Shown here piece after piece: positions 4,093 through 17,574 of a stretch of DNA of 33,244 nucleotides. The DNA comes from an uncultured Oscillospiraceae bacterium (GTDB taxonomy: Bacteria > Bacillota > Clostridia > Oscillospirales > Oscillospiraceae). The DNA is taken from positions 1 to 33,244 of the forward strand of contig CANRNF010000031.1 in the NCBI GenBank assembly GCA_947631865.1, written 5' to 3'. The translations under genes and the position numbers were made by a program. The stretch's first letter is position 1, and every line of letters starts with the position of its first letter. The notes under the pieces were generated by a model, which made no database searches, was not told the origin of the DNA, and saw only the letters and a list, made by a program, of their open reading frames with translations.

Positions 4093-4279
4093 CACCGCAC
4101 AATGCCAGAAAATCTGGCTTTACGGCCTCTCTGATTTCTTCCCATACCTTATGCTCTGCCAGTTCATGCGTCCATACGGGACGGCCCAGCGCCTTTTCTA
4201 TGTACTCATGTAATTTATCCATGTCGCACATAAGAACACCGGTATACGCAGAAACAATAAGGCGTTCATTCAGCGTCAT
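4073..4279 (-). CDS. Small phage protein (DUF7736-like)
   Basis: 68 residues starting at ATG 4279, preceded by GGAGGCGGTAAG. This start is preferred over a TTG at 4300 because of that signal. The sequence begins MTLNERLIVSAYTGVLMC and continues with HEYIEKALGRPVWTHELA and a V-W-E-E-I motif. Short proteins with this pattern are frequent in Firmicutes phages and carry only domain-of-unknown-function names. It starts two bases after the stop of the 27-residue membrane peptide, so translation is probably coupled. Confidence 0.7.
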   Translation of the reverse strand: MTLNERLIVSAYTGVLMCDMDKLHEYIEKALGRPVWTHELAEHKVWEEIREAVKPDFLALCGDDDAEA

Positions 4280-4280
4280 C

Positions 4281-4364
4281 TTACCGCCTCCACTTATCAA
4301 TTACCATTATCGCCAGAACCGTCACGCAGATTATCAGGATATTCACCGTTGATGTTGCTATCAT
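4281..4364 (-). CDS. 27-residue single-helix membrane peptide
   Basis: Begins at ATG 4364 behind a very strong site (AGGAGGT, 4370-4376) and ends TAA 4281-4283. The protein is almost entirely one hydrophobic helix (VNILIICVTVLAIMVI) capped by DKWRR, so an N-out, C-in inner-membrane peptide is likely. It lies between the portal gene and the DUF7736-like gene. The ribosome binding site of the latter is within its last codons. Function unknown. Confidence 0.6.
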   Translation of the reverse strand: MIATSTVNILIICVTVLAIMVIDKWRR

Positions 4365-9840: not shown

Positions 9841-9999
9841 TCACCTCACGCTCTTTTCATACGTTTCCAGTGTAATAAACTTAAACCCGCAATTAACACA
9901 TTTCCTATTCCTCCGTATCTGGCCGGACTGTGTTTCCCGTGTCCCATATACTCTTGAATCACCGCCGCATTTTGGACATTTACGCGCTGCTGTTATCAT
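9841..9999 (-). CDS. NrdR-like zinc ribbon mini-protein
   Basis: 52 residues from ATG 9999 to TGA 9841. It has CPKCGGDSRVY followed by IRRNRKCVNCGFKFITLETYE. That reproduces the N-terminal zinc ribbon of the transcription repressor NrdR (CPxC...RRRRxCxxCxxRFTTYE). The ATP-cone domain is absent. It overlaps the methyltransferase gene by 20 bases and ends six bases before the next start. A DNA-binding regulator is possible, and binding to NrdR boxes is inference only. Confidence 0.7.
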   Translation of the reverse strand: MITAARKCPKCGGDSRVYGTRETQSGQIRRNRKCVNCGFKFITLETYEKSVR

Positions 10000-10735
10000 C
10001 GTAAATTCCTTTCCCTGACAATTTCATATAGCAACCCCAAAACGTCCTAGACTGTTTCCCGCTGTGATGGCCAAACAAAGGCTTTTGGCCGATCGCTTTC
10101 CAAACCTTGTCAGCTGGAATATCGTACTCGCTCCATTTGAAAATCAAAACACCGTCAGGCTTTAGGACGCGCATACACTCTTTGAAACCGTCATGTAGCA
10201 TCTGCGGCCAGCTGTCATCTAGCTTTCCGTACTTCTTTACCAACCACGCCGTCTCTTTTGCACCTGTCAAGTGAGGCGGGTCCCATACAACCAGCGGGAA
10301 AGAATTGTCTGGAAACGGCAAATCAGTAAAATCACAAAGCACGTCAGGGTTAATATCAAGTGTGCAATTACCGGCGTTCTTCCAGAGATTGTGATATTCC
10401 TCCCTCCGCTTGTCGCAGTAGATAGCATTTGGATGGTGCTTGTCGAACCAGATGGAACGTGCGCCACAGGTCACGTCCAATATTTTCTTGTCGCTGAAAT
10501 CAATGCTTGTCATTCGTATCGCCTCCTGTAAAAACGGGCACTCCCTCCCGCCAAAGTCATTGTCTGTCAGTATCTCGCAGCGCCTGCCGGAATTTCTGTT
10601 GCAGCTCGTTCTTTGGCAGGAAGGCCAGTCTGACTGGTCTTGTCGCTTTGGCTTGAAATAACGGCAGTTCTTCACGAGGTATCTGTGCGACCTGGCACAA
10701 GGAGTATTTACGCAATCATGGCAATCTCCGTTCAT
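9980..10735 (-). CDS. SAM-dependent methyltransferase with Cys-rich N-terminus
   Basis: 251 residues from ATG 10735, which has GAGGAGG six bases upstream. Residues 1-65 hold about ten cysteines (CHDCVNTPC, CRYFK, CQRTSC, CEIL, ECPF), a probable zinc-binding module. The class I methyltransferase domain follows. Motif I is KKILDVTCGARSIWFDK, an acidic NAIYCDKR strand end comes next, and motif IV is VVWDPPH. A CMRVLKPDGVLIFKW region follows, then the C-terminal SRTFWGCYMKL. The DPPH motif suggests an amino-group target, possibly DNA adenine. In the host or phage it may protect phage DNA from restriction, a role in keeping with the Lar-like proteins nearby. Confidence 0.78.
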   Translation of the reverse strand: MNGDCHDCVNTPCARSHRYLVKNCRYFKPKRQDQSDWPSCQRTSCNRNSGRRCEILTDNDFGGRECPFLQEAIRMTSIDFSDKKILDVTCGARSIWFDKHHPNAIYCDKRREEYHNLWKNAGNCTLDINPDVLCDFTDLPFPDNSFPLVVWDPPHLTGAKETAWLVKKYGKLDDSWPQMLHDGFKECMRVLKPDGVLIFKWSEYDIPADKVWKAIGQKPLFGHHSGKQSRTFWGCYMKLSGKGIYDDNSSA

Positions 10736-11252
10736 CGTCAACCTCCTCAACCGGTCCATGCGTTTTCTCGTACTCAACCATGCAATCCATAAGTTGCCAC
10801 CCACGGCGCTTATATGCCGCTATCATTTCCCGCATCGTAGCATCATCCCACCCGAAGTTGATGGAATATTTCTTCTCCTCAGCAAGCAAGCCAGCATTTT
10901 CTTTAGCAAGCTCTGCTTGCTTTCTTAAACATTCGTTCTCTATCTCATTCTCATTCTCTATCTCGTTCTCTTTCTCCCTTTCAGTTTGCTTTGTGTTTGC
11001 TTTCGCTTTGCTTCCACCTTGCTTACCGCTTTTTGCTTTTCGCTTGCTTGCATCAAGGTTCGGTTTGATAAGCTCAAAAGCAATAGCGGCGGCATCTGGG
11101 AGAGAGTTCATATCCGGTTCAATGCCATACAGAGCGTAGTTGCAGATGGCGTCATAAGCGTCTGCCCTGTCGGTCTTTTTCTTGATGTACCGAAGGGCCT
11201 TTGCGAAGCTCTCAAAGAATGTAAAGCCTTTTCTCGCTTCTTCATCCTCCAA
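10716..11252 (-). CDS. DUF6291 family phage protein (replication region)
   Basis: 178 residues from TTG 11252, eight bases after AAGGGGG. Residues 8-70 (KGFTFFESFAKALRYI, AICNYALYG, AFELIKPNLD) are the DUF6291 signature. A low-complexity linker of Glu/Asn repeats and a C-terminal helical part ending in WQLMDCMVEYEK follow. Such proteins occupy the position of replisome organisers in Firmicutes phages. An ATG at 11245 in the next frame encodes MKKREK, which resembles normal family starts, so a single-base loss near 11230 is possible. Confidence 0.72.
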   Translation of the reverse strand: MEDEEARKGFTFFESFAKALRYIKKKTDRADAYDAICNYALYGIEPDMNSLPDAAAIAFELIKPNLDASKRKAKSGKQGGSKAKANTKQTEREKENEIENENEIENECLRKQAELAKENAGLLAEEKKYSINFGWDDATMREMIAAYKRRGWQLMDCMVEYEKTHGPVEEVDDERRLP

Positions 11253-13742: not shown

Positions 13743-14237
13743 TCACTTAATGCTCATGCTCATGTTGGACACAAGCTCTGCGCCGATAACTGTCTGCCCC
13801 TGTTCAATGGCCTTTTTGATGGCCGTCTTGGAGATTTTCGGCTCGTAGGTGATAGCGCCGGGGATAAGCTCGTTTGCGGTGGAGGACAGGAACAGATTTT
13901 CGTCCACCTGCACAGCGTTGGTCTTTCTCCAACTGATCGCCACGCGGGACGTGCTGAATTTCTCCCCCGCCAGCGCGTCAGACAGATACCGTTTCAACCG
14001 CTCGACCTTGTTCTCCGCCGCCTTGCGCCGCTCAGATAACGCCTGTTCCTCTGCCTTGATAGCCTTTGCGTCGGCGGTGAGATTCTTGACGTAACACGCC
14101 AGGTTCTCTATCTTCGCCTCGCGCTCCATCTGCAAAGCGTCCAGCGCCGCCGGGTCAAGCGTCAATTCCCCGGTCTCCGGGTCAACGCTGTTTTCGATAA
14201 GCTCCTGTATCTGTCGGTCTATATCGTAAAGGTTCAT
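13743..14237 (-). CDS. Siphovirus Gp157 family protein
   Basis: 164 residues, ATG at 14237 behind AAAAGGAG. It has the family plan: an N-terminal helix (LYDIDRQIQELIE), LDPAALDALQMEREAKIENLACYVKNL, a long coiled-coil, and the C-terminal strand set ending TAIKKAIEQGQTVIGAELV. Members such as Gp157 of Streptococcus phage Sfi11/Sfi21 (Pfam PF05565) lie with recombination genes and have been linked to phage resistance when supplied in trans. The coiled-coil resembles Mu Gam-type DNA-end binders, but this is only likeness. Confidence 0.85.
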   Translation of the reverse strand: MNLYDIDRQIQELIENSVDPETGELTLDPAALDALQMEREAKIENLACYVKNLTADAKAIKAEEQALSERRKAAENKVERLKRYLSDALAGEKFSTSRVAISWRKTNAVQVDENLFLSSTANELIPGAITYEPKISKTAIKKAIEQGQTVIGAELVSNMSMSIK

Positions 14238-14266
14238 TTGACAAACTCCTTTTGATGTGATAAGTT

Positions 14267-14596
14267 TTAAGTAACGTCTTTTTCGTTGCCGCTGTCCTCT
14301 GTTCCAGAGAGGGCGGCGGCTCTCTCTTTGAGCATGAAAATCTTTACGCCGTACTTGTAGAAGTAGAGAATATCATAGCCGTCAGTGTAATCTTCTTCAT
14401 GCAGGTCCTCGTGAAAGTATGTTGCCAGCTTTTCCATATTTGCATTATGCAGGTGCATTTTTGCGATAGGCTTGTCCATTTCTGAACTATTGGCATCGAC
14501 CTGAACCTCAGCGTTGATGATGTCAGTATCGTCTGGCATATCCTCTACCGCACATATCAGCGCGTTTAGCTGTTCCTCTACCGCATAATTCGTCAT
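14267..14596 (-). CDS. Phage protein, unknown function
   Basis: 109 residues, ATG at 14596 overlapping the stop of the upstream gene (ATGA). The product is acidic, with an IINAEVQVDANSSEMDKPIAKMHLHNANMEKLATYF segment, an aromatic patch (GYDILYFYKYGVKIF) and a charged tail. It has no membrane helix, cysteine pair or known motif. It is in the early operon between Gp157 and a ribbon-helix-helix-like gene. I do not recognise the family. Confidence 0.6.
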   Translation of the reverse strand: MTNYAVEEQLNALICAVEDMPDDTDIINAEVQVDANSSEMDKPIAKMHLHNANMEKLATYFHEDLHEEDYTDGYDILYFYKYGVKIFMLKERAAALSGTEDSGNEKDVT

Positions 14597-14937
14597 GCCG
14601 TTCTCCTTTCTGTCTCTTTTTCAAGGTCGCTCAAAAACGCATTGACAACGAATGTCATAAGGTCTTGCATCGTTGCATAGGACATCACGTCCATAGCCCG
14701 TGTTAAACGCTCTTTTTGCGCCTGTGTGACGCGGAACTGCACCCGGTAGGGGTTCCGCCTATTCTCTGGCTTGCCTTTGATATGGCGCACTACAACGGGC
14801 CGTAGCATTACGCCGTAATCTGCATTACTCGCCATGCAATGCGTCGATTTGCAATACTTTGGAGCGATCTCTTTTACTTTGGCGATAAACTCCCGCGTTG
14901 GTATGTTGTGTTCCTGGCAGTATGCTTTTGGATTCAA
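14593..14937 (-). CDS. Phage protein with ribbon-helix-helix-like C-terminus
   Basis: 114 residues, TTG at 14937 behind AAGGGGTGATATT. The N-terminal part (MNPKAYCQEHNIPTREFIAKVKEIAPKYCKS) looks like a short helical DNA-binding or adaptor domain. The C-terminal region, with NPYRVQFRVTQAQKERLTRAMDVMSYATMQDLMTFVVNAFL, has a strand-helix-helix arrangement like Arc/MetJ repressors. A regulator of the early operon is possible. It is the last gene before the low-complexity tract. Confidence 0.6.
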   Translation of the reverse strand: MNPKAYCQEHNIPTREFIAKVKEIAPKYCKSTHCMASNADYGVMLRPVVVRHIKGKPENRRNPYRVQFRVTQAQKERLTRAMDVMSYATMQDLMTFVVNAFLSDLEKETERRTA

Positions 14938-14944
14938 AATATCA

Positions 14945-15372
14945 CCCCTTTTTGAAATGAATTATCCTTGCTGAACATTGCGTTTCGTTCCGACGCCTTT
15001 GCTAAACCGCTCTTAGCCGCTCTATGCAATTCCATCGCCTTACACTTCATCGCTTGCCTTTTCCTGTCCTTGCCTTTCCCTAGCTTAGCCTTTCATTTCG
15101 CTTCTCTTCCCTTGCATATCACCGCACGGCTTCTCCGTTGCGCGCCTGTGCAACCCCGTTCATTTCCTTTGCTAGTCCTGGCATTACGACGCCCAGCTTC
15201 TCCGTTACTTTGCTTCTCGTTGCCGCTCCATGCCATCGCAATGCCATTCCAACGGTGCAATGCGATTCCTGCGCCGCTCAAAGCTAGGCTACCCCCATGC
15301 CAAGCTAATCTTAACTGCGCTAAACCATGCCGCCGCGATTCCCGGCCAATCCATGCGGGGCTATTCCATCGC
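14945..15372 (-). repeat. Degenerate five-base periodic tract, copy 1 (non-coding)
   Basis: About 430 bases with no convincing gene on either strand. In the minus sense the strand is purine-rich and built from short words such as GGAAT, GGCAT, AGCAA, TTGCA and GCGGC, with a G recurring in the same place of successive five-base units over long runs. Example: TTGCA TAGAG CGGCT AAGAG near the left end. Pyrimidine bias of the other strand leaves it almost free of stops, which creates a long spurious plus-strand frame. It starts directly after the stop of the RAMP-like gene. Confidence 0.65.
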
Positions 15373-15966
15373 TTACTTAACCTCTTCCCATGTAAACCGG
15401 CCCTTGCCGCTATTGCGCCACTGACCGATGCCGGAGAATCTGCCATAGTCCAGCCACTCGCGGACAGCCTCTTCATGGTCATCGGACAGCATGACGATGG
15501 AAAACTCAACCGTAGCCCCGGCGGGTATCTGTTCGCTGATTGCGAGGCTCACGCGCTCCCCCTGCATGGTCTGCGCCCGCAACGGCCTCTGGCACTCTGT
15601 AATGTCGCCGCTGAAAAGAATGGGAATACAACGCGGCTCCGGGAAAATCAGCTTGTCGATTTCCTTTTTGAACGCCTTGATTTTCTCGCTTCTAGTACCC
15701 TTTACTTTCCGCAAGCCGCCGCAGGTGTCCTTGAAAAAACCTTTGATTTGATAGTCGTACAGAAACGGCGTACCATCGTCCAGCCGGGGAAATACGGTCA
15801 TGCCCTTTTCTACCACGGCGTCGGCTCCAAGCGCGGCCACTTCATCCTCGACCGTTGCGGCGTCAGGCGCTTTTGTTCCGATAAAGTCCCGGTACACTTC
15901 CTCATTTGCCGGGCTTGTCCCAAGAATGGGCTCCGTGAATGTAAGTTTGACTTTCAGTGTTTTCAT
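15373..15966 (-). CDS. RAMP/Cas7-like phage protein, function unknown
   Basis: 197 residues, ATG at 15966 behind AAGGAG. Several signatures of RAMP-superfamily (Cas5/6/7-type, RNA-binding ferredoxin-like) proteins appear in order. These are an N-terminal strand KVKLTFTEPILG (residues 5-16), DGTPFLYDYQIKGFFK (64-79) like the Csm3 'PYIPGSSLKG' turn, and RPLRAQTMQGERV (127-139). EQIPAGATVEFSI (145-157) follows, and then a C-terminal glycine loop GIGQWRNSGKG (179-189) that exactly fits GxGxxxxxGxG. It is one domain with no cas genes nearby. Close relatives are common in Clostridia phages and carry no function. It stands alone between two periodic tracts. RNA binding or processing is an inference. 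The family link is by motif, not by search. Confidence 0.6.
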   Translation of the reverse strand: MKTLKVKLTFTEPILGTSPANEEVYRDFIGTKAPDAATVEDEVAALGADAVVEKGMTVFPRLDDGTPFLYDYQIKGFFKDTCGGLRKVKGTRSEKIKAFKKEIDKLIFPEPRCIPILFSGDITECQRPLRAQTMQGERVSLAISEQIPAGATVEFSIVMLSDDHEEAVREWLDYGRFSGIGQWRNSGKGRFTWEEVK

Positions 15967-15984
15967 GTTTTACTCCTTATAAAA

Positions 15985-16250
15985 ATATTTTTGGATTCCC
16001 TGCTATGCAATTCGATTCGACGCCATTGCGCTACATTTCCTACGCAACTCACGGCCTCGCGCAGCGTTTCCGTTTCGTGTCCTAGCTGTACTATTCCTTT
16101 GCAACGCAACTCCCGGCTATTCGGTGCTATTCCTTCGCCATACACATCATCGCCCGGCTATTCCTTCGCCCTTCTGCTCCTGGCTTGGCCCGGCCGCGCA
16201 TATCCTTTGCCGACCCAATCTGCGCCTTGCCCTACGCCGCACTTCCGTAG
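15985..16250 (-). repeat. Degenerate five-base periodic tract, copy 2 (non-coding)
   Basis: About 265 bases between the RAMP-like gene and the preceding membrane-protein gene, with the same style as copy 1. In the minus sense it has ATAGC ACCGA ATAGC CGGGA (16130-16111), followed by GTTGC GTTGC (16110-16101), and TCGAATCGAATTGCATAGCA (16020-16001). The word GGCGAAGGAATAGC occurs twice (16139-16126 and 16170-16157). No gene is supported. It covers the 5' side of the RAMP-like gene and would be part of its transcript. Confidence 0.65.
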
Positions 16251-16514
16251 CTACTCGCCCATAATTTCGTCTGCGTATTCCGGCCAGCGGTCTATGTATA
16301 TCTTCGCCTCGCCGTTATAGCCGGTCATGTTGTATAGGTTCCGGGCGTAAGCGATTTGAGACGGTGACGGCTCTTTCTTTGGCTCTGGCTTGTCCCATGT
16401 GGTGAAAGATGCCATAGCGGCCAGAATAGCCAACAGGATGATTAGAACGACAGCCTTTCCGCGTCTGCGCCGTCTGCCCTGTCTCTGGTGACGGCCAATC
16501 AGCTCTCTCTGCAT
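16251..16514 (-). CDS. Small single-helix membrane protein
   Basis: 87 residues from ATG 16514 (GAGGGCG upstream). It overlaps the preceding gene by 16 bases. A very basic N-terminal stretch (RHQRQGRRRRRGK) is followed by one hydrophobic helix (VVLIILLAILAAMASF, about residues 20-36) and a Lys/Pro linker. A C-terminal soluble part contains PSPSQIAYARNLYNMTGYNGEAKIYIDRWPEYADEIM. The positive charge before the helix predicts an N-in topology. Unknown function. Confidence 0.6.
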   Translation of the reverse strand: MQRELIGRHQRQGRRRRRGKAVVLIILLAILAAMASFTTWDKPEPKKEPSPSQIAYARNLYNMTGYNGEAKIYIDRWPEYADEIMGE

Positions 16515-16699
16515 ACGCCCTCGTTCCACTCCTCGATAGCCACCTCCTCTGTGATGTGCCGTTCCGTATGCCGACAGCAACTCTTACAACGGATGTAGTA
16601 AGCGCCGTCTATCGGTGAGCGCCATACCTCTGCACGGCCACCGCAGTTACAGCGGTTTAGTTTCAAGTCGCCGTCATATACCAGGTGTTTGCTTGCCAT
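16499..16699 (-). CDS. Lar-like zinc-finger mini-protein
   Basis: 66 residues from ATG 16699 (GGGAGGGC upstream). The ATG overlaps the TGA of the previous gene (TGATG). NRCNCGGRAEVWRSPIDGAYYIRCKSCCRHTERHITEEVAIEEWNEGV has the Lar-type layout: CxCGG, CxSC, and a closing A-x-x-x-W-N helix. Lar proteins relieve type I restriction in some prophages. Here only the pattern supports that. It is the second Lar-like gene in this phage. Confidence 0.65.
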   Translation of the reverse strand: MASKHLVYDGDLKLNRCNCGGRAEVWRSPIDGAYYIRCKSCCRHTERHITEEVAIEEWNEGVCRES

Positions 16700-16815
16700 C
16701 AGTGCCGCCCTCCCAGCGGTAAACTCTCTATGAATCGTTCTATCGGTCCGATGTGTGGGAAGATATAGTCTGCTATGACACATCCGATAGCCAGCACGAA
16801 ACATGTCGTTATCAT
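16699..16815 (-). CDS. 38-residue membrane peptide
   Basis: ATG 16815 with GGAGAATACAG upstream, TGA 16699-16701 overlapping the next start. One hydrophobic helix (MITTCFVLAIGCVIADYIF) leads into a short amphipathic tail (GPIERFIESLPLGGRH). It forms part of a chain of overlapping tiny genes. Unknown function. Confidence 0.5.
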   Translation of the reverse strand: MITTCFVLAIGCVIADYIFPHIGPIERFIESLPLGGRH

Positions 16816-16831
16816 TCTGTATTCTCCATTC

Positions 16832-16966
16832 TTATTTGAAAACTAAATTGGCAATAATAACAAACAAGCCAACGAAGATCCAAAAATCTATAGACGATAT
16901 TTCCTCCTCTATTTTTGATATAATCTCTTTTATTTCTGTTATCGCTTTATATGTTTCGTCATCCAT
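16832..16966 (-). CDS. 44-residue C-tail-anchored membrane peptide
   Basis: ATG 16966 (ACGAGGCAATCTT upstream), TAA 16832. A charged helix with heptad-like spacing (YKAITEIKEIISKIEEEI) is followed by one membrane helix (FWIFVGLFVIIANLVF) and Lys. The layout resembles holin-like or membrane-anchored coiled-coil peptides. Overlaps the preceding 36-residue frame by 28 bases. Unknown function. Confidence 0.5.
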   Translation of the reverse strand: MDDETYKAITEIKEIISKIEEEISSIDFWIFVGLFVIIANLVFK

Positions 16967-17049
16967 AAGATTGCCTCGTGTCCTTTCTGGTCGCCTACGC
17001 TTCGGTGGACCATCTTGCCGGACTTGCGTCTCTTTATGCTCTCGCCCAT
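16939..17049 (-). CDS. 36-residue basic peptide
   Basis: ATG 17049 preceded by GGGGTGACGGG. It begins five bases after the stop of the 72-residue gene. Strongly basic (KRRKSGKMVHRSVGDQKGH), no hydrophobic helix. The support is only its good ribosome binding site and close packing, so it could be spurious. Confidence 0.35.
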   Translation of the reverse strand: MGESIKRRKSGKMVHRSVGDQKGHEAILWMTKHIKR

Positions 17050-17053
17050 CCCG

Positions 17054-17272
17054 TCACCCCATAAAGAAGAACATCGCCAGCATCCCGAAAAACGCGCCAA
17101 GGATGATGACTGCGAAGATAATATCTTCTGCCAGGTCAAGTTTCTGCGCCGCGTTCAACTTCCTGCTCTCTCCCTCATGTCTGAGCAGCCGCGCCGCGTC
17201 CAGAACCTTGTCCACGTCCTTCTCCGACGACGCGATGCTCTTTACCACGTCTGTAAATTTGCGTTCATCCAT
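17054..17272 (-). CDS. 72-residue tail-anchored membrane protein
   Basis: ATG 17272 behind AAAGGAGG. A charged helical part (residues 1-50, with SSEKDVDKVLDAARLLRHEG) leads to one C-terminal hydrophobic helix (IIFAVIILGAFFGMLAMFFF). The topology is cytosolic domain plus tail anchor. Its upstream region contains, on the opposite strand, the promoter of a small RNA. No family recognised. Confidence 0.62.
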   Translation of the reverse strand: MDERKFTDVVKSIASSEKDVDKVLDAARLLRHEGESRKLNAAQKLDLAEDIIFAVIILGAFFGMLAMFFFMG

Positions 17273-17293
17273 AAAAAATTCCTCCTTTGGTAT

Positions 17294-17322
17294 TTGACGG
17301 CCAATCGGAGGTTTGATATAAT
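17294..17322 (+). promoter_or_regulatory. Sigma-70-type promoter of a plus-strand small RNA
   Basis: TTGACG (17294-17299), a 17-base spacer and TATAAT (17317-17322), both near-perfect. It points against the surrounding minus-strand operon and is followed about 40 bases later by an intrinsic terminator. Confidence 0.75.
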
Positions 17323-17328
17323 AGCCTC

Positions 17329-17400
17329 GTGATATGGCCTAGTGCATTAGGTCTGTCACAGCCCTGTCTGGTGCTCCATCACCGGGCGGGGCGCTTTTTA
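17329..17400 (+). ncRNA. Short plus-strand RNA (about 70 nt), antisense to early operon
   Basis: From the promoter at 17294-17322, transcription should start near 17329 and stop at the T-run ending at 17399. The RNA holds a first hairpin GGCCTA-GTGCAT-TAGGTC and a second 13-bp terminator hairpin. It has no ribosome binding site or likely peptide. It is fully complementary to the spacer between the 58- and 72-residue genes on the minus strand. I cannot place it in a named family. Confidence 0.62.
17361..17399 (+). terminator. Intrinsic terminator of the plus-strand RNA
   Basis: GCCCTGTCTGGTG (17361-17373) pairs fully, with three G-U pairs, to CACCGGGCGGGGC (17380-17392). The loop is CTCCAT, and GCTTTTT follows. 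On the minus strand the same hairpin has no T-run, so it acts only for plus transcripts. Confidence 0.85.
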
Positions 17401-17574
17401 TTTTGCTAGTTGTGCGCACATTGCGTACAAGACTTTCACAAAGCATACAATCGACGCTATGGAGCAAACAGAAGAAACTATGTCGGCAAAACTGCTATTC
17501 TCTTCTTTTGCTTTGTTGCAACTTACAACAGCAAGCACCCAAAGTACGATTCCGTAAAACAATGAAGAGAGCAT
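17398..17574 (-). CDS. 58-residue two-helix membrane protein
   Basis: ATG 17574 (AAGGGGCAGTA upstream), TAA 17398-17400. Two hydrophobic segments (LFYGIVLWVLAVVSC, then IVSSVCSIASIVCFVKVLYAM) are joined by a charged turn (NKAKEENSS). A small holin-like or unknown membrane protein of the early operon. Its stop codon lies in the T-run of the opposite-strand terminator. Confidence 0.5.
   Translation of the reverse strand: MLSSLFYGIVLWVLAVVSCNKAKEENSSFADIVSSVCSIASIVCFVKVLYAMCAQLAK

Follow-up and report, generated by a model that had tools for sequence, protein, structure and literature searches.

What does a solitary protein resembling the RAMPs of CRISPR systems do when its gene lies between two stretches of periodic, non-coding DNA? 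The case arises in an uncultured Oscillospiraceae bacterium (assembly GCA_947631865.1, contig CANRNF010000031.1, positions 1 to 33,244 of the forward strand; this whole 33,244-nt stretch is referred to as the window), where a 197-residue protein is encoded at 15373..15966 on the minus strand. The original prediction had proposed that protein and tracts form one system, an RNA-binding protein and the RNA or DNA that it coats or cuts. Our conclusion is that it belongs to the VIPR systems, or to a sister form with the same mode of action. VIPR is known from one 2026 preprint (PMC13142463), the sole description among the papers listed when the literature was searched by name or by idea. There, a phage RAMP (Vipr) is guided to double-stranded DNA by vrRNAs made of YNNGG repeats, using a noncontiguous code in which one base is skipped, and the system is used against rival phages and satellites (PMC13142463). 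Seven types are described with the consensus GGY/NN "or a related consensus" and with variable array architecture (PMC13142463).

The 197-residue product of the open reading frame (ORF) contains DGTPFLYDYQIKGFFK, EQIPAGATVEFSI and GIGQWRNSGKG, which are all of the RAMP motifs quoted in the original prediction. An alignment of 81 family members shows invariant residues G179, W183 and G189 in the glycine loop (G-loop) GIGQWRNSGKGRF, together with invariant R127, R130 and R138. Profile and structure searches point to the same fold: the family profile matched Cas7 in the PDB (E 2.4e-4), and the AlphaFold model, in which residues ~21–60 are of low confidence, resembles type VII Cas7 and the type III-A protein Csm3 by Foldseek. 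Judged by this model and by sequence, the protein is a Cas7-type RAMP, and its predicted single-domain fold with the G-loop is that of a Vipr. A ribosome-binding site, AAGGAG (15973..15978, minus strand, by eye), lies 6 nt before the ATG of this vipr-like gene.

The closest solved relatives by profile and Foldseek are type VII Cas7 proteins (9j9e, 8yhd, 8z4j), which are also ~200 aa in length and work with a CRISPR RNA (crRNA) that pairs contiguously. They differ in their setting of cas genes and CRISPR arrays, none of which is seen here. Csm3 (9g9i, 6ae2) shares ~10% identity; it is the backbone subunit of a complex of several proteins, which binds crRNA with a spacing of 6 nt. As had been claimed, there is no CRISPR array among the tandem or direct repeats of the window, and no Cas match was obtained for the neighbouring window proteins scanned (0/10 against PADLOC, 0/9 against Pfam). 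The multi-gene cas operon plus array that defines class 1 CRISPR-Cas was thus not found.

Both stretches that flank the gene are non-coding, and a hidden Markov model (HMM) together with lag-5 identity places a guide-type tract in each, on the minus strand like the gene. The downstream tract (14962..15369) comprises 408 nt and 79 units, mostly of the form G-C/A-N-N-N, with 6-nt steps (a doubled G) every ~6 units; the upstream tract (15995..16256) comprises 262 nt and 51 units on the same lattice and strand. Lag-5 identity reaches 0.435 in the stretch downstream of the gene and 0.401 in the upstream one, compared with 0.25 in the gene and 0.253 across the window; of all 200-nt windows in the 33 kb (50-nt steps), the 11 that score highest start within 14901–16051. 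The two tracts predicted earlier are therefore present, at 408 and 262 nt rather than ~430 and 265, and their five-base periodicity is real, though the period is not exactly five: six units take ~31 nt. Two adjacent 31-nt copies of a direct repeat, family D3, lie inside the upstream tract (16126..16187, minus strand, 71% alike), and a third copy (81%) lies in the downstream tract at 15026–15056. From gene order, it is plausible that tracts and gene share one transcript. The tracts might also have been a structured RNA or ribozyme, an idea we rejected as Rfam was silent for window positions 14000–17500 (zero matches up to E 1); folding of tract RNA was no better than that of shuffles (z +0.96 and -0.42). 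Simple tandem repeats were likewise rejected, Tandem Repeats Finder (TRF) having reported no array across the window tracts.

The original prediction named two computational checks, the fold of the protein and the presence of tracts beside its homologues, and both turned out in its favour. For the second, a sample of 105 relatives was assembled from viral contigs (80 of 109) and genome contigs (25); by profile, at least 362 stretches of viral contigs encode the family, and the 80 best-scoring ones were retained. In 104 of the 105 loci (all but L010, a near-copy of L009) and in the window, strong 5-periodicity marks 9.5% of the 150-nt windows lying no more than 1.5 kb from the gene, versus 0.1% of those farther off. 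The cleanest count uses 145 non-redundant loci found by protein, window included, of which 137 have 300 nt or more on each side of the gene. In 132 of these 137, a tract lies within 1.5 kb (71 downstream, 48 upstream, 13 on both sides), at a median distance of 5.5 nt and in 90% of cases at no more than 69 nt; with loci found by tract pattern, which this count excludes, the figure is 148/154. Gene orientation is shared by 153 of 154 tract segments. Loci cut near the gene have a tract in 4 of 8 cases, and 75 of 77 further profile-scan stretches, many from the same contigs, have one somewhere.

Among the five misses, L093 has two lag-5 segments under the HMM cut, L109 a G-periodic stretch of other composition, and L281 a remnant of ~110 nt; in L287 a tract at 1689–2580, immediately before the gene, was overlooked since the ORF had been delimited by stop codons at both ends. 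Only L270, with ~30 nt, has practically no tract. For comparison, we scanned a control set of 140 stretches (1.96 Mb, many overlapping): matches of terminase searches and of a pattern search, prophage regions and Escherichia phage SUSP1. The HMM called a tract in none of the 139 stretches that lack a profile hit; the single tract lies in L366, which alone has such a hit. This HMM is tuned to the present clade, and neither the arrays of SUSP1 nor the Hydrogenobaculum phage stretch discussed below is called by it. A search with the lattice letters alone returned at least 120 viral stretches, mostly chance matches. Among the pattern matches listed, 37 have an HMM tract, 24 of them with the gene, and of the 27 loci whose lattice score is 3.3 or higher, a threshold set after the list had been inspected, 22 have the gene at 36–62% identity; at least four of these gene contigs (L148, L161, L200, L224) had also been found by protein. 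On sequence grounds alone, these data confirm that the RAMP gene and the pentanucleotide-lattice tract form one selected unit. Biochemistry is given in the preprint for the SUSP1 and P. fulva systems (PMC13142463).

The tracts follow a common grammar across the family. By consensus, a unit is G followed by C or A and three variable, A-rich bases; composition is G 0.92 at the lattice position and C 0.55–0.61, A 0.24–0.30 and T 0.11–0.12 at the next, and between one quarter and one third of units have a further G just before the lattice G. G–G correlation peaks at 5, 10, 15/16, 21, 26, 31, 36 and onward, remaining coherent up to 160 nt, and Fourier spectra of all four bases peak at 5.16. The mean period is thus 5,5,5,5,5,6, or ~31 nt per six units, and over 52,863 nt in 136 segments, with near-copies excluded, a cyclic 31-state HMM captures 0.266 bits per nt compared with 0.250–0.254 for 5-, 26-, 30- and 36-state HMMs. 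Successive 6-nt steps, mostly doubled Gs, are 5–7 units apart in 1465 of 2021 cases counted in 158 tracts (a few of them without gene), and 1–3 units apart in 100, where random placement would give ~820. Segments are long, with a median of 98.5 units over all 200 called segments and a median of 529 nt per locus.

Selection on this lattice can be read from 14 homologous tract pairs, some of which share members. The lattice G changed at 24 of 808 sites (3.0%), compared with 89/675, 94/675, 93/676 and 94/678 at the other four unit positions (370/2704 in all, 13–14%). In aligned relatives, near-identical stretches alternate with stretches that agree almost solely at the Gs: in the replaced blocks of five pairs, G agrees at 52 of 53 sites, an upper bound as the alignment itself favours matching Gs, and the other bases at 64 of 180. 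A lattice that is kept while its contents are exchanged block by block is as expected of guides.

Together, protein homology, gene–tract linkage, the strand rule and the conserved G lattice point to a VIPR-type locus, and we consider it probable that the prophage encodes such a system, with the tract RNA bound by the RAMP as guide. The tract RNA would be transcribed in the direction of the gene. RAMP copies would then bind it, most likely about one per five nucleotides, each gripping the conserved G and, less strictly, the following C or A, so that the variable bases could be presented for pairing with DNA from competing phages or prophages; these competitors would be silenced. This scheme joins the RAMP fold and homology, linkage, strand rule, conserved lattice and block-wise turnover found here to vrRNA expression, binding, double-stranded DNA targeting, the 1-nt skip rule and silencing, all borrowed from related systems (PMC13142463); that the present clade works like the characterised VIPR is suggested by analogy. 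The G lattice and the guide function go beyond the original prediction, whose pairing of gene and tract into one system is favoured by fold and linkage and, by analogy, by the RNA-coating known for the related SUSP1 and P. fulva proteins, with which vrRNA has been shown experimentally to co-purify (PMC13142463).

The SUSP1 system, VIPR type II, allows a direct comparison. An ORF of this phage (KT454805.2, 28474–29061) has GGTNN arrays on both flanks, and by its position and these arrays is presumably the preprint's Vipr. Aligned with hhalign, the SUSP1 protein ALH47069 matches the present family with E 6.1e-5 over 170 columns (probability 65%), in a single pairwise comparison made without an unrelated control. 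The systems share a phage single-domain RAMP with a GxGxWR..GRF loop and non-coding pentanucleotide-lattice arrays on both sides of the gene, in its orientation; long intergenic flanks with tandem pentanucleotide repeats adjoining the gene, a VIPR trait, are likewise present here. The SUSP1 arrays are short (~65 nt, by eye) and GGTNN in sequence with no 31-nt peak, whereas the present tracts are long and have the ~31-nt super-period. The preprint also gives SUSP1 a vap1 gene and vrRNAs that are separate and tailed, a vap accessory being typical of VIPR though not universal (PMC13142463).

Several observations weigh against assigning the locus to VIPR. The present consensus, GC or GA followed by three variable bases, is akin to the strict GGY/NN but not identical, and segments with a median of 98.5 units far exceed the vrRNAs of 9–16 units with a 3' tail in the preprint's main text (PMC13142463). 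We recognised no tail element, and Rfam gave no element beside the tracts in the window or in 12 relatives, where the sole match at the gathering threshold was a tRNA in L150, distant from the tract. In contrast to SUSP1 with its vap1, we found no accessory gene conserved beside the RAMP gene, and neighbour-family counts in 105 and 166 loci spoke against a conserved partner: among ORFs of at least 90 aa, antisense frames of the gene excluded, SSB is the commonest other family with 21 of 105 loci, and the six window neighbours compared have homologues in 0–10 of 166. Tracts also occur without the gene, in 13 of the 37 HMM-tract loci among the pattern matches listed; in five of these the tract reaches the stretch end, one (L153) is a microsatellite, and seven are internal (954 nt in L143, 110 nt in L197 and segments of 115–196 nt in the others).

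The search for guide targets adds to these points. Variable bases were read as pairs (p2p3, p3p4, p1p2, p2p4), triples, quadruples or singles, with skips of 0–3 for most readings and some offsets at 6-nt steps, and were compared with 2.5 to 4.5 Mb of DNA from related phages and prophages in which the tracts had been masked. None of these readings was clearly better than guides with shuffled units in up to 4.5 Mb, and as the database was small and the search lacked a positive control, this result neither supports nor refutes DNA targeting. Early high scores were traced to the microsatellite contig L153 and to GC-rich repeats in L132 and L226, which were dropped with other doubtful loci. The p2p3 pairs with one base skipped, the preprint's rule, gave 6 scores of at least 18 (shuffles 0 and 4) and 2 of at least 20 (shuffles 0 and 0), and triples with two skipped gave 15 of at least 18 (shuffles 9, 7 and 5); neither excess is counted as evidence. 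The best match, of L055 units 115–131 to L312:11445, pairs 28 of 32 positions and is codon-phased, codon-phased matches being about equally frequent in shuffles, and p2p3 could not be told from p3p4 by dinucleotide fingerprints. Searches with three window guides yielded no convincing target: one guide compared with 199 relatives gave two 2-mismatch hits, its backward control one, and in viral contigs the other two had 1 and 0 exact matches. That one exact match (10 units, L448, 67% AT) does not extend into neighbouring units and by eye is not codon-phased; it is probably due to chance.

Could the tract RNA instead be a decoy, a solitary Cas7 and its RNA acting as an anti-CRISPR that poisons type III or VII effector complexes of the host? 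The solitary-repeat RNA anti-CRISPRs (Racr) are the natural comparison, and the 197-aa protein is by all indications a genuine Cas7 relative. We nevertheless regard this as very unlikely: the window tracts have no Rfam match or structure, block-wise turnover of the variable bases between relatives suits guides better than mimics, and DNA targeting has been reported for a related system (PMC13142463). That the tracts are neutral repetitive DNA, as a non-coding and periodic stretch might be, is hardly credible. The conservation pattern already contradicts it, G being retained selectively (24/808 versus 370/2704 changed), as do linkage to one gene (132/137) and the lack of any TRF array over the tracts.

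A pair of the type III toxin–antitoxin kind, modelled on ToxIN with its ribonuclease and repeat RNA, would have the RAMP as a ribonuclease held in check by the repeats. Repetitive DNA does adjoin the gene in the same orientation, yet the units are variable, the window tracts unstructured and the tract may sit on either side of the gene, which leaves this reading less probable than the decoy. On a par with the decoy we place a DNA-level element, in which the RAMP would be a DNA-binding protein and the tracts its array of sites, serving in partition, packaging or replication. The mean period of ~5.16 nt is near half a turn of B-DNA and coherent over 160 nt, so that two units span 10.3 bp, near a helical turn. 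The strand asymmetry tied to the gene (153/154) favours RNA, though neighbouring phage genes are often co-oriented; moreover, the RAMPs of known systems bind RNA and the tracts of the related system are transcribed (PMC13142463).

If the VIPR reading is retained, the kind of system has been known since 2026 and the present clade would be set apart, by its sequences, by a distinct tract grammar. The quasi-regular extra nucleotide per ~6 units is a feature absent from the main text of the preprint (PMC13142463). It may keep register in a long filament or mark overlapping guides; were filament geometry the cause, it would constrain how the protein reads RNA, and any decoding of this clade's guides would have to build it in. 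Tentatively, the clade could represent a long-guide form of VIPR with arrays of a median ~100 units per segment, a one-nt seam per ~6 subunits and perhaps three variable bases per unit instead of two, a suggestion about which we are doubtful rather than confident. Such a seam would then mark a full turn or ring of the filament, or the point where overlapping guides begin. A distant homologue, ALG96927 of Hydrogenobaculum phage 1 (KP282676.1; hhalign E 4e-9), is followed directly by ~700 nt (L109, 3899–4617) with G periodicity at 5, 10, 15, 31 and 36, where just one small hypothetical ORF (4146–4316) is annotated. This stretch differs in its low-C lattice and other composition. The host of this phage belongs to Aquificota. 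Because the stretch also peaks at 31 and 36, the ~31-nt rule would be old if the long-guide form is real.

Lattice-like DNA was also seen apart from the gene. A 4.65-kb contig without a RAMP profile hit, L143, has its 954-nt lattice tract at 612–1565. The GC-rich contigs L132 and L226 (7944–8418) have long 5-nt-periodic stretches and no RAMP profile hit, and are possibly other VIPR types.

The window appears to be a prophage joined to chromosomal genes (ORFs by eye, phage families by profile), and the RAMP gene lies in its early region with Gp157, NinB-like and SSB genes alongside. As in VIPR, phages and prophages carry the gene, as seen from the relatives in viral contigs (109, and at least 362 by profile); named relatives in genome contigs are mostly from Oscillospiraceae or other Clostridia. 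Only 2 of 199 genomes of host relatives, its own genome included, have the gene, a rarity expected of a mobile element. Directly past the downstream tract, 14593–14937 encodes a 114-aa protein whose C-terminus is ribbon-helix-helix-like by eye; with homologues in just 2 of 166 relatives, it is not a conserved accessory. Near the upstream tract, 16499–16804 encodes a small zinc-ribbon-like protein, weakly Lar-like (PHROG 599, E 1e-5; under the Pfam cut-off), and in the same early region 9980–10804 encodes a DNA methyltransferase (PADLOC MTase_II E 2e-52, orphan MTase E 2e-39).
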